From NCBI RefSeq assembly GCF_900103955.1, contig NZ_FNIL01000003.1, positions 124,001 to 188,000 of the forward strand: a stretch of DNA of 64,000 nt, given 5' to 3'. This stretch comes from Alkalicoccus daliensis. Its GTDB lineage: Bacteria > Bacillota > Bacilli > Bacillales > Salisediminibacteriaceae. Of this stretch, positions 45,401 through 49,510 are shown in pieces. Within the stretch, counting starts at the first letter, position 1. Each line of letters starts with the position of its first letter. Under the pieces are notes generated by a model. The model had not been told where the DNA came from. It ran no database searches and was given only the letters and a program-made list of their open reading frames with translations. The position numbers and the translations under genes were made by a program.

Positions 45401-47434
45401 ATGGAAAAAAATCATATTTTCACCGGAGAGAGTGTGGATGAAGCTGTTCAAGTTGCTCTGGCTGCTTTAAATGTAGCAGAAGAGTCGGTTGATATAAAAA
45501 TTCTGCAAAATGAAGGACCTGGTTTTTTCGGACTCGGACGCACAAAAGCAAAAATAAAAGTGGTGCATAAGATGCCTTCCGAGGAAACAGGATGGGAAAA
45601 TATGCTTCAGAAATATACCGCGGAAAATACATCTTCTGAAGAACGGGGAGAAGAGCTTCAATTAAATCTGGATGGAAAAGCCTGGATAAAAGAGGGCTCT
45701 TTATATTTCCAAGATACAGCTGAGCAGAAGCCAGTGCTTATTCTGCCCGGTGGTGTCACAGCTTTAAAAAATGGAAAGCCGGTTGAAAAAAAGACCATTC
45801 TTTCCCAAGGAGACAGACTTGATTTTTCACTGGAAAAGCAGGCTCGTGAAACAAGCTGGTCTGTGAAGGTGGATAACCAAAAGCAGCTCGTGGAGCTGAG
45901 AGTCACACCTGGTGCTTATTTTGTAAGTACCATTGAAGATGCGCCACCTGCCGCGAACCTTTACATTTCCACAGCTTCACAGGAAATACCTTTAAATCAG
46001 CTTACGGAAAAAGATATTTATGAGCAGCTGGAGAGAATGGATATCGTGGAAGGGATCTGTGAAGAGGAAATTAAAGCAGCTACGAGGGCGGAAAGACCTG
46101 CTTCATTTATCATTGCCAAAGGAAAACTACCCGTTCACGGAAATAATGGGAAAATTAATTTTATTATTGATATTCGGCAGCAAAGCGGTAATTATAAAGA
46201 AAAACTCGACGGTACCATTGATTTCCGGGAATCTATTCATATTCCCACGGTGAATGAAGGTACGGTATTTGCCTCCATAATAGAACCGACCCCCGGAGAA
46301 GATGGCATCAGCGTATTTGGAGAAGTGTTAAAAGCAAAAGCCGGCAAACCTATACAGCTTGCCCCCGGCGCCGGAATTGAAATTAATGAGGAAACGAACG
46401 AAGTGGTTGCTGTAAGCAGCGGAAGACCGCATGTAGACCAAAGAGGACAGTCTGTGCGTCTTTCCATCCTTCCTAAATTGCTGCACCGCGGTGATTTAAG
46501 CCTGCAGGATGGGAATATACATTTCATAGGGGATGTAGAAGTCCATGGCTCAGTACATGAACAGATGATGATTGAAGCTGCAGGAGATATCTGGATTCAT
46601 AAAAACGTTGATAAAGCATCTCTCCAGTCGAGTAAGTCGATAATAATTAATGCAAATGCATTAAACAGCAAGATTGTCGCCGGACAAAGCAGTGCTATTT
46701 ATGAAGAAGCACTTAAACTTCTGAAGCAGTTTCTCTACAATTATCCTTCCTTTTTAAAAGTTTTCCAGCAGGTCACTTCATCAGAGGCATTTCAGTCTTC
46801 CTATAATGGAAAAAACGGCTGGGGTCCTTTAGTGAAAGCACTGCAGGAGAAGAAGTTTCCGGAAGTGAAAAAATCTGCAGAAGCATTAACTGCCTATATT
46901 AACGCCCAGAAGACTTTGTTTGAAGGTAAGTGGAAAGATTTTTCCGATATGATTCAATATGGGCTGCTTACTTTTCACCATAAATCACCGCTTGCAGAAG
47001 ATCACTTTTTTGAAATAGAACGACAGGCTTTCCAATTACATGACGTGCTGGAAAGCCCCTCTGCCAGCAGTTCACGAATTGCTTTAAAATACGCTGCCTA
47101 CAGTGAAATGTATTGTGACGGCGAAGTTGATATTCTGGGGAAAGGGGCCATCCACTCTCATATATATGCAGATGGCTATGTAACCATTCACCAAAAATTT
47201 ATCGGTGGTAAAATTTCCGCGAAAAAAGGAATGAATATTAAAGAAGCAGGCTCCCCTGGAGGAGCGAAAACGCTCCTCCAGACGGACAGTACCGGTGTAA
47301 TTAAGATAGAACATGCGCACCCCGACGTCCTTCTCTCTGTAGGCGGAATAAATCATAAGATCCGTATGGAGGAGTTTTACCTCACTGCCAGGCTTGATAG
47401 TGAGGGCAGGATGAAGATTTCGCGAAATAATTAA
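45401..47434 (+). CDS. DUF342/FapA-like protein with N-terminal Jag-N domain
   Basis: A 677-aa cytoplasmic protein. Residues 1-53 form a Jag-N domain (IFTGESVDEAVQVALAAL, GFFGLGRTKAKI) like that of the RNA-binding/cell-elongation protein Jag/EloR. The rest is a FapA/DUF342 polymer-forming beta-helix type with repeated Gly-rich hydrophobic turns (VHGSVHEQMMIEAAGDIWI, GAIHSHIYADGYVTI) around a helical insert at about 440-550. Function of the family is unclear; it is sometimes tied to cell surface or motility traits. Control by c-di-GMP is indicated by the riboswitch. AAAGGTGG precedes the ATG. Confidence 0.85.
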   Translation: MEKNHIFTGESVDEAVQVALAALNVAEESVDIKILQNEGPGFFGLGRTKAKIKVVHKMPSEETGWENMLQKYTAENTSSEERGEELQLNLDGKAWIKEGSLYFQDTAEQKPVLILPGGVTALKNGKPVEKKTILSQGDRLDFSLEKQARETSWSVKVDNQKQLVELRVTPGAYFVSTIEDAPPAANLYISTASQEIPLNQLTEKDIYEQLERMDIVEGICEEEIKAATRAERPASFIIAKGKLPVHGNNGKINFIIDIRQQSGNYKEKLDGTIDFRESIHIPTVNEGTVFASIIEPTPGEDGISVFGEVLKAKAGKPIQLAPGAGIEINEETNEVVAVSSGRPHVDQRGQSVRLSILPKLLHRGDLSLQDGNIHFIGDVEVHGSVHEQMMIEAAGDIWIHKNVDKASLQSSKSIIINANALNSKIVAGQSSAIYEEALKLLKQFLYNYPSFLKVFQQVTSSEAFQSSYNGKNGWGPLVKALQEKKFPEVKKSAEALTAYINAQKTLFEGKWKDFSDMIQYGLLTFHHKSPLAEDHFFEIERQAFQLHDVLESPSASSSRIALKYAAYSEMYCDGEVDILGKGAIHSHIYADGYVTIHQKFIGGKISAKKGMNIKEAGSPGGAKTLLQTDSTGVIKIEHAHPDVLLSVGGINHKIRMEEFYLTARLDSEGRMKISRNN

Positions 47435-47660: not shown

Positions 47661-48551
47661 TTATATATTTTCAACTGTTAATTCTTCTATCTCTTCATCA
47701 ACTATTTCCGCAAAGAAAGTGTTGTTTCTAAGTAAAAAAAGTGTTTTTGCTCGTTCATAAAAACGCAGCGCTTCTTTTTTTGATAACTGCCCTCCTTTCC
47801 ACCCACTCTGTCCGCACTGAAAATAAAATTCCCCAAGTATATAGAGAGAATCGTTCTGGAGACAATATTTCACCCCTTCCTGTGAAAATTTCAAGGATGT
47901 TTTGTAATTCTCCTGGTCAAATTCATTTTTGCTGTAATTGTAATAGGTTCTCAGAAGAAGCTTATTACTCAGCACATATGGATGACGGGCTATTTCTTTC
48001 AAGAGAAGCTTATAAATGGAAGCTGCTTCTTGATACCTTTCCATCACACTGTAAATAATCGCTTTGCTTAAAAGGATATCCAATTCTCTCTCTGATTTGT
48101 TTTTCGCAGTTGTAGGAGCAAGTGCCAAGGCTTCATCTAAACAATCAACTGCACTTGCTGCATCTTCTTCCAGATGAAAAAGACAAATGCCTTTTCTCCA
48201 TAATAAATACTGTTTTAAATCTGCCCTTTTAAATATTGGATTCTCTTCTTCTGCTTCCACCATCTCCAGTACTTCTGCATACTTGGCCCTGTCTATATTT
48301 TTCGAAATGGAGTCAATAACTTTATACATATAATTCACCTTCGTTACATCCGCAAAGGGATCAAAAAAATACTGCGGCGCTACGCCAAGGCGCTCTGCTA
48401 TCATGGAAAGTACATTAGCTGAGGGATGCACAAGACCTTTTTCCAGTTTACTAATAAAACTTTGATTGCAGATCCCTTCACATAAATCCGCTTGAGAAAT
48501 TCTATAAAATGAACGAAGTTCTTTTATTTTTCTTCCAATTTCAATATCCAC
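47661..48551 (-). CDS. HTH-TPR transcription regulator, RNPP/PlcR-like
   Basis: About 296 aa. Residues 3-58 form an Xre-type helix-turn-helix (IGRKIKELRSFYRISQADLCEG, SFISKLEKG). The remainder is a helical array of tetratricopeptide-like repeats (LLWRKGICLFHLEEDAASAVDCL and similar), the layout and length of PlcR-type peptide-sensing regulators. The GTG at 48551 follows GGAGGGAGAGG and is preferred over an upstream frame extension. It diverges from a tiny secreted peptide gene 161 bases away, the expected cognate signal. No phosphatase or enzyme domain. Confidence 0.85.
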   Translation of the reverse strand: MDIEIGRKIKELRSFYRISQADLCEGICNQSFISKLEKGLVHPSANVLSMIAERLGVAPQYFFDPFADVTKVNYMYKVIDSISKNIDRAKYAEVLEMVEAEEENPIFKRADLKQYLLWRKGICLFHLEEDAASAVDCLDEALALAPTTAKNKSERELDILLSKAIIYSVMERYQEAASIYKLLLKEIARHPYVLSNKLLLRTYYNYSKNEFDQENYKTSLKFSQEGVKYCLQNDSLYILGEFYFQCGQSGWKGGQLSKKEALRFYERAKTLFLLRNNTFFAEIVDEEIEELTVENI

Positions 48552-48588
48552 GGCCTCTCCCTCCAAATAAATATTCCTATATGAATAC

Positions 48589-48616
48589 AGTTTACACCTT
48601 TTTATCAGAATACCAA
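48589..48616 (-). promoter_or_regulatory. probable promoter of the RNPP regulator
   Basis: On the minus strand TTGGTA, 16 bases, GTG-preceded TAAACT. Acceptable hexamers placed about 40 bases before the GTG start. Confidence 0.45.
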
Positions 48617-48662
48617 GTTTTTTGGCCAATTAAGCCATAATTCAGCCTCTGACGCTGTTTCG

Positions 48663-48699
48663 GTATTTTTTTTACTTATCGTATACTTAAAAAAAATAC
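48663..48699 (+). promoter_or_regulatory. perfect 12-bp inverted repeat around the peptide gene -10
   Basis: GTATTTTTTTTA (48663-48674) and TAAAAAAAATAC (48688-48699) are exact inverted arms 13 bases apart. The spacer contains TATACT (48682-48687), a perfect-looking -10 box with only a poor -35. A dimeric regulator bound to the arms would straddle the -10, so this is the best candidate operator for the divergent HTH-TPR protein. Confidence 0.65.
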
Positions 48700-48712
48700 G
48701 AGGAGGCTTCTT

Positions 48713-48826
48713 ATGAAAATATTAGTGTTCGCTTGTACTGCTGTCATGGTTATGGCTTTTGCCGGGGTAGATCTGCTGGACGTGGTGGAACCTCTCGGTA
48801 AAGGACTTCCTTATAAGCACGGTTAA
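48713..48826 (+). CDS. 37-aa secreted pro-peptide, candidate pheromone
   Basis: Starts with ATG after AGGAGG (eight-base spacing) and ends at TAA. The N-terminus MKILVFACTAVMVMAFAG is a short signal peptide with an AFA cleavage site; the remaining 20 residues end in GKGLPYKHG. Size, signal peptide, short C-terminal tail and divergence from an HTH-TPR regulator match the PapR/NprX kind of autoinducer precursors. The mature peptide is unknown; the L-P-aromatic core recalls PapR. A terminator follows at once, so it is its own transcript. Too short for ordinary gene calling. Confidence 0.72.
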   Translation: MKILVFACTAVMVMAFAGVDLLDVVEPLGKGLPYKHG

Positions 48827-48840
48827 TATTTGAATAACTA

Positions 48841-48870
48841 AAGCCGCCCCTTCATGGGACGGCTTTTTTG
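48841..48870 (+). terminator. terminator of the peptide gene
   Basis: AAAGCCG-CCC stem with one mismatch, loop TTCAT, GGG-CGGCTTTTTT. Fifteen bases after the peptide stop codon; it may also end the convergent azoreductase transcript. Confidence 0.8.
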
Positions 48871-48883
48871 GTTCATGCATTAT

Positions 48884-49510
48884 TTAGAAGCTTGCTGCCT
48901 GCTTTTCTGTTTTAGCAAGACCTTCCTGGATAATTTCTTCTGCCTTTTCCGGGAACTGATTGTGACCTTCGATAATAACGCTTGAGCGGTTATCAATACC
49001 AAAGAAGTTCATGATCGTCTCCACATAGTTCACAGCCATCTCCATAGAAGCAGCTGCACCTTCTGAATAAACACCGCCGCGTGCATTCAGCAGCATTACT
49101 TTTTTCTCGGACATCATGCCTACCGGGCCAGCTTCTGTATATCTGAAAGTTGTACCTGCCTGACAAAGGTAGTCAAAATACGTATGAAGTACAGCAGGGA
49201 CACTGAAATTCCACAGTGGGAATGCAATTACTACTTTATCTGCTTCAAGAAACTGGTTTAAATAACCTTTTACAAGCGTAGCTGCTTTTTCTTCTTCTGG
49301 AGAAAGTTCAAGCCCTTTTGCTGTTTTAAACATTCCATGAATTTTATCAGCATCGTAATAAGGAAGATTTTCTTTAAACAGATCAAGTTCCTGTATACGG
49401 TCATTCGGATTTTCCTTCAAATAATTTGCTTTAAAAGTATTGTACATCTGCAGGCTCACCGCCTGGTCGTCCGGACGAGAGTTTGCCTTAATAAATAATA
49501 CATTTGCCAT
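48884..49510 (-). CDS. azoR: FMN-dependent NADH-azoreductase
   Basis: A 208-aa flavodoxin-fold enzyme. The FMN-binding start VLFIKANSRPDDQAVS, PLWNFSVPAVLHTYFDYL and NARGGVYSEG are typical of AzoR/AcpD, which reduces azo dyes and quinones and protects against thiol-reactive stress. CCAGGAGG precedes the ATG. Single gene. Confidence 0.9.
   Translation of the reverse strand: MANVLFIKANSRPDDQAVSLQMYNTFKANYLKENPNDRIQELDLFKENLPYYDADKIHGMFKTAKGLELSPEEEKAATLVKGYLNQFLEADKVVIAFPLWNFSVPAVLHTYFDYLCQAGTTFRYTEAGPVGMMSEKKVMLLNARGGVYSEGAAASMEMAVNYVETIMNFFGIDNRSSVIIEGHNQFPEKAEEIIQEGLAKTEKQAASF

Follow-up and report, generated by a model that had tools for sequence, protein, structure and literature searches.

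The locus and its features

The window, a stretch of 64,000 nucleotides from Alkalicoccus daliensis, contains a regulator gene that diverges from a gene of only 37 codons. The locus raises the question of whether the two encode a receptor and its peptide pheromone of the RNPP type, whether such a pair would be of a new kind, and which genes it would control. We compared it with the other seven Alkalicoccus genomes (G001-G007, G000 being the window's own genome) and with a family set of 35 genomes. The features concerned are the following:

47661..48551, minus strand: PlcR-like RNPP regulator (HTH and TPR), 296 aa, with a GTG start at 48551
48572..48587, minus strand: candidate operator box of the regulator gene, TATTCATATAGGAATA, 20 bp upstream of its start codon
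48682..48687, plus strand: TATACT, possible -10 hexamer for the small gene, found by eye, without a good -35
48713..48826, plus strand: pheromone precursor gene, 37 aa, with a signal peptide (by eye) and a tail ending PLGKGLPYKHG
48840..48870 (approximate), plus strand: probable terminator (hairpin and T run) separating the small gene from the convergent azoR
48884..49510, minus strand: azoR (FMN-dependent NADH-azoreductase), a neighbour that is not thought to be a target

The small gene, with its AGGAGG ribosome site, is present and divergent from the regulator as the sequence-only reading had described; the ribosome site of the regulator is GGAGGGAGAGG. A probable terminator also stands 3' of the small gene, a hairpin with imperfect pairing and a T run (-15.5 kcal/mol, z -3.6, from folding of about 48840-48870); a simple terminator pattern scan of the locus reported none, this hairpin included. 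A promoter scan of the plus strand 5' of the small gene found nothing matching sigma-70. A longer, 322-aa reading of the regulator from a TTG start is unlikely, since the starts of the orthologues coincide with the GTG start of the 296-aa reading. Downstream of the regulator (45401-47434) lies a gene for a FapA-like protein with a Jag N-terminal domain; a similar gene stands at the same place in G003 (L013, judged by eye), and other genes are found there in G002, G004 and G006.

The regulator resembles PlcR

In Pfam the regulator matched RNPP_C (E 4e-21) and HTH_3 (E 9e-7), both above cut-off, with TPR models below cut-off. Its best relative of solved structure by sequence was PlcR, found in a PDB search at 1.2e-10 with the sequence alone and at 8.6e-23 with a profile. 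The AlphaFold model is all-helical (pLDDT 80.5, pTM 0.77), with low confidence in the HTH part, and its top Foldseek matches were the PlcR entries 3u3w, 2qfc and 4fsc. The best of these, 3u3w, which contains PlcR with PapR7 and DNA, was matched with E 3.9e-8 and TM values of 0.65 and 0.68, for a superposition that is loose (rmsd 7.8).

Two residues, N205 and K208, are invariant in the five sequences of the genus and align with Asn201 and Lys204 of PlcR. In a docking model of PlcRa, as described in the available part of its report, residues N205 and K208 touch the peptide (PMC3519770). Three marks of the RNPP/PlcR subfamily are found together here, namely an HTH and a TPR domain, the Asn and Lys of the TPR groove (N205/K208), and an adjacent gene for a small exported precursor in 5/5 genus orthologues, export being judged by eye. 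The sequence-only proposal of a PlcR-type RNPP regulator with a cognate pheromone gene is corroborated by Pfam, the PDB search, the fold match, the five orthologous loci and the selection described below.

The small gene is conserved with the regulator

The regulator is present in five of the eight Alkalicoccus genomes, the window's included, the other four sequences being 53-61% identical to it. In all five, the small gene occupies the same place and is divergent, with a ribosome site and a signal-peptide-like start; a regulator kept beside a broken or absent small frame was looked for in the genus and seen in none of the five. The precursors measure 35-37 aa, and their best-conserved part is the C-terminal tail, which reads PLGKGLPYKHG in the window and G003, TLGGGLPYRHG in G002, PLGDLPYRHR in G004 and PLGDLPFRHR in G006. 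The L-P-aromatic core that the sequence-only reading had seen in common with PapR holds for the genus, and related proline-aromatic tails are found in the family. A search for the peptide in plasmid records gave one chance match.

In the closest pair, G004 and G006, the peptide gene shows eight synonymous and two nonsynonymous changes (pN/pS 0.08, p = 3e-4). Purifying selection was tested in nine pairs in and outside the genus, some of which share a sequence, and was significant (p <= 0.02) in six. The remaining pairs were G000/G003 (ratio 0.70, p 0.21), in which the signal peptide has diverged and the last 11 residues are identical, L056/L057 (p 0.06), and L066/L067 (p 0.23, a single change). 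A small frame free of purifying selection, the outcome named beforehand as adverse, is contradicted in the six pairs and not in these three.

Divergent pairs recur in the wider family

Regulators of the same profile (E <= 1e-30) occur in 22 of the 35 family genomes, the five of the genus included. The 40 profile matches comprised 30 with loci (five of the genus, 22 of the family and three of a paralogue set) and ten that were left out. Small genes of the family were chosen for their hydrophobicity, position and ribosome site, with no formal control, and on these terms a divergent small gene is found at 18 of the 22 loci outside the genus, with tails such as NEDIPFKHG, APPxYTHG, DLPPIHM, DIPYIHL, LPYEH, FDYEH and DLPEQH. 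No comparable peptide series appeared when this rule was applied to a shorter stretch on the downstream side of these loci. A candidate peptide is present at two of the three loci of the paralogue set, and paralogue loci within the genus carry a divergent peptide in 7/9 cases, with a near-terminal DLPYE (six) or DSPYE (one).

A second RNPP regulator was found in the window's genome (L019 1501-2370, G000:C3:34918-35787), and its divergent precursor (L019 1271-1417, minus strand) carries two PapR-like cores, ADLPYED and MDLPYED. Scanning genome contigs with an alignment of the regulator gave three loci (A. saliphilus 6AG, A. luteus H11 and an Alkalicoccus MAG), and the same scan with the single protein gave no relative. 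In the regulator tree, the five Alkalicoccus sequences stand together (90/99, below star level), separate from the subtilase-linked regulators described below, with no firm order among the groups; of the rows in this tree, G001p comes from an incorrect reading frame and G001q is uncertain.

The divergent order, taken at first to be unlike that of any known pair, is in fact the common one both at the family loci and at the paralogue loci. The RRNPP_detector survey, in the part available, likewise tabulates differing receptor/peptide orientations (PMC10075063). Since the divergent order and the proline-aromatic tails recur in the family and in the second Alkalicoccus pair, the regulator and its small gene are, on sequence grounds, a member of the PlcR/PapR kind and not a separate kind.

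A 16-bp box at the regulator and at htpG

A 16-bp near-palindrome, TATTCATATANGAATA, is present in exactly two copies in each of the five regulator-bearing genomes, the first 20-26 bp before the regulator start codon and the second before htpG (Hsp90). When the eight genus genomes were searched with the pattern TATTCNTATANGAATA, two sites were found in each of these five, one in G005, also 5' of htpG, and none in G001 and G007; the reversed pattern, used as a control, gave none. All 11 sites conform to TATTCATATANGAATA when read in gene direction. At the regulator, 15 of the 16 columns are invariant in the five orthologous loci, as compared to 5/60 columns upstream and 0/17 downstream, and at htpG the same number is invariant in six genomes, as compared to 5/60 and 3/17.

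The htpG of the window's genome sits on another contig (G000:C6) and was therefore outside the view of the sequence-only reading. Its identity is given by NF003555 (524 bits versus a cut-off of 371, on the first 402 aa), and the proteins of the other genomes are 78-82% identical to it. The box ends 20, 22, 19, 19, 19 and 19 bp from the TTGACA (-35) of htpG in the six genomes. At all six box-bearing promoters a CIRCE element, TTAGCACTC-N9-GAGTGCTAA, starts 38 bp past the start of the -35, which places htpG with the HrcA/CIRCE heat-shock genes.

In 29 other family genomes the exact box occurs four times in ~128.6 Mb (~0.03 per Mb), a rate at which the chance of a site in a given 300-bp upstream region is ~1e-5; the reversed pattern gave four sites in all 35 genomes. 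The four background sites are in coding sequence (G010), before a dehydrogenase-like gene (G015), intergenic (G019) and, in G030, starting 34 bp before the frame of a distant RNPP paralogue. htpG was found in 32/35 family genomes and carries the box only in the six Alkalicoccus. The region upstream of htpG was read at 23 of 30 loci, those of G030, G023, G029, G032, G018, G016 and G008 being left out and G013 and G017 having no locus; in a whole-genome scan that included these nine genomes, htpG was nowhere accompanied by an exact box. For the box in the intermediate genus (G011 and G012), each genome has one exact site, at the regulator, and two-mismatch sites number four and five versus two and five in the control.

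With one mismatch allowed (exact sites included), sites and reversed-control sites numbered 3 and 3 in G000, 5 and 0 in G002, 3 and 1 in G003, 3 and 2 in G004, 2 and 1 in G005, and 2 and 2 in G006. One-mismatch sites are noise in most genomes, G002 excepted, where these counts suggest that the regulon may be larger. The extra site in G000 and the exact site in G010 lie inside acyltransferase-like coding sequence, and one G002 site falls within a frame resembling rsmG (genes named by eye); sites L073, L075, L076 and L077 are intergenic or at gene starts, next to differing genes.

Among the six near-complete Alkalicoccus genomes, four have the regulator and the box and two have neither (Fisher p 0.067). 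The latter, G001 and G007, keep azoR and htpG and have neither the pair nor the box. This co-occurrence is drawn from few, related genomes and possibly reflects one evolutionary gain. G005, a genome that is 80% complete, has the htpG box and no close match to the regulator; the contig with its azoR breaks off 72 bp beyond that gene, in the direction in which its relatives carry the pair.

A different box and a probably different output in the sister genus

The regulators of the sister genus (seven genomes, G023-G026 and G028-G030) and of G016 and G018 form a related clade, also with a divergent peptide and a box just before the regulator start. Their box, however, is ATTAACATATTAAT, and its second copy is mostly found before an adjacent S8 subtilase gene. 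In six of the nine genomes (G016, G018, G024, G026, G028 and G029) the box recurs exactly in the interval that separates the regulator from the downstream S8 subtilase gene; the copy in G025 differs by one base, and in G023 and G030 this interval holds only weaker resemblances to it. Matches to this box number 21, with 15 at regulator-subtilase loci and six elsewhere, and the control gave seven; none of the matches listed is at htpG in these genomes. The S8 family was assigned by Pfam in G028, G016, G029 and A. saliphilus, and in the other genomes by likeness in listings. The reading of the subtilase side covered 24 of 27 loci, the downstream side of L049, L065 and L061 being left out.

A secreted-looking S8 gene, without a box, also lies 3' of the regulator in A. 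saliphilus and in the MAG (L010 2420-3658 and L011 1361-2521), and may take part in precursor trimming or be left over from an earlier output. Comparison of the two groups suggests that the output seems to have been rewired, from an exoprotease in the sister genus to a chaperone in Alkalicoccus, a direction of change that we infer.

Proposed circuit and alternative readings

We propose, with a probability of about 0.7, that the locus encodes a PlcR/PapR-like quorum-sensing pair whose peptide-loaded regulator would bind the 16-bp box, repress its own gene and activate htpG. Observed here are the gene pair and its conservation, the selection on the peptide, a conserved box, and the joint occurrence of box and regulator. 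The 37-aa precursor would be exported via its signal peptide and trimmed to a C-terminal oligopeptide containing LPYKHG. After re-import, this peptide would occupy the TPR groove of the regulator, whose gene diverges from that of the precursor, and the regulator in its loaded form would then recognize the box. Since the self box is found at about the expected transcript start, binding there would limit the level of the regulator. At htpG, the box is centred near -63 to -66 of a sigma-A-type promoter, with the start site taken from the -35/-10 hexamers; a position just upstream of the promoter is a usual place of an activator, and binding there would increase the transcription of htpG in addition to its heat-shock control by HrcA/CIRCE. 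The shared box suggests that the pheromone pair probably controls the level of HtpG. On balance we also favor the broader reading, in which htpG would be the only conserved outside target, a population signal would set chaperone supply, and the change from protease to chaperone would have come about through one relocated operator.

The block between the ROK kinase gene and htpG (about 1180-1420 of L030, and the same place in L032, L034, L035, L037 and L039) carries a hairpin and T run on the strand opposite htpG, and is a possible small RNA. The htpG box could serve this divergent side, that is, a minus-strand small RNA with its terminator or the ROK kinase gene, with htpG as a bystander. Indeed, the hairpin and T run are conserved, and -10-like TATAAT/TATACT hexamers are found ~100 bp beyond the box, with nearly constant spacing in the six genomes (by eye). 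However, the consensus htpG -35 is only 19-22 bp from the box, the spacing between the box and the IDIGGT motif in the ROK gene ranges between 289 and 921 bp, and Rfam, run on the six htpG upstream loci, gave no family at gathering score and one chance-level match in L039. We thus consider this reading unlikely. The regulator could also repress htpG, with the peptide relieving or imposing the repression, as some RRNPP regulators, such as PrgX, are repressors. This is an improbable arrangement here, the box ending 19-22 bp upstream of the -35 and leaving the promoter uncovered.

Another DNA-binding protein might own the box, the RNPP gene and htpG being merely co-regulated by it, and the presence of the box before the dehydrogenase-like gene and in the intergenic site, once each, could be read in this way. 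Such ownership appears quite unlikely, however, since both near-complete Alkalicoccus genomes without the regulator are also without the box, the sister-clade RNPP regulators are associated with a palindrome of their own in a similar position, and the RNPP paralogue of G030 has the same box before its frame. That the small gene encodes an unrelated small membrane protein and no pheromone might be suggested by the size of its product and by the lack of a Pfam or NCBIfam match, but is very improbable given the conservation of the tail, a core like those of PapR7 (ADLPFEF) and PapRa7 (CSIPYEY) in the available part of PMC3519770, and the recurrence of the same arrangement with related RNPP regulators. 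The least credible reading is that azoR is the target, as the sequence-only reading had considered: azoR adjoins the pair in the four genomes assembled on that side (G000, G002, G003 and G004), but it runs convergently toward the small gene, shows no box in the window within two mismatches and occurs in G001 and G007, where the pair is absent; together these points speak strongly against it.

Comparison with known systems

The preferred reading, a pheromone pair acting on itself and on htpG, can be set beside PlcR/PapR of the Bacillus cereus group. Both regulators have an HTH and a TPR domain within ~290-300 aa and align nearly end to end, with the Asn/Lys of the peptide groove, a small exported precursor with a C-terminal LP-aromatic core, and a 16-bp palindromic box with TAT at its start and ATA at its end; identity over the fold alignment is, in contrast, 21-22%. 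papR lies downstream of plcR in the same direction, whereas the peptide gene here is divergent, and PlcR commands a large virulence regulon, whereas conserved exact boxes are found here only at the regulator itself and at htpG. The box also differs, being TATGNAN4TNCATA for PlcR in the available part of PMC3519770, and the pair is thus not PlcR/PapR in the strict sense, in box as in gene order. PlcRa/PapRa of B. cereus, a PlcR paralogue with a small peptide gene upstream and an IPY core, has a role in stress responses according to the title of the report; the part available describes a peptide internal to a 93-aa precursor, no palindromic box found by the authors, and abrB2 as the direct target (PMC3519770).

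The candidate clusters of RRNPP_detector share the association of a receptor with a small exported neighbour, as far as the available part of the survey goes (PMC10075063). Alkalicoccus is not named in the main texts of three RRNPP surveys (PMC10075063, PMC12700828 and PMC9765709), and htpG is absent from the main text of the first. A literature search for htpG with RNPP and quorum sensing, or with RRNPP, gave no paper combining them, and titles and the beginnings of abstracts, including those on HrcA/CIRCE and quorum sensing, gave no link between a pheromone and htpG. The pair itself is of the known PlcR/PapR kind, and the htpG output is its unusual part.

Known RRNPP circuits, in the accessible part of the RRNPP_detector survey, control virulence, competence, necrotrophism, sporulation, biofilm formation and conjugation (PMC10075063), and bacterial HtpG is described, in the portion available of another report, as less well characterised (PMC8957991). 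The small regulon and the defined 16-bp box make the proposed circuit directly testable. If it is true, a pheromone-gated Hsp90 would link population signalling with protein-folding capacity and would give bacterial HtpG a concrete regulatory role, and the contrast between protease and htpG in related genera would be a clean example of a rewired quorum-sensing output.
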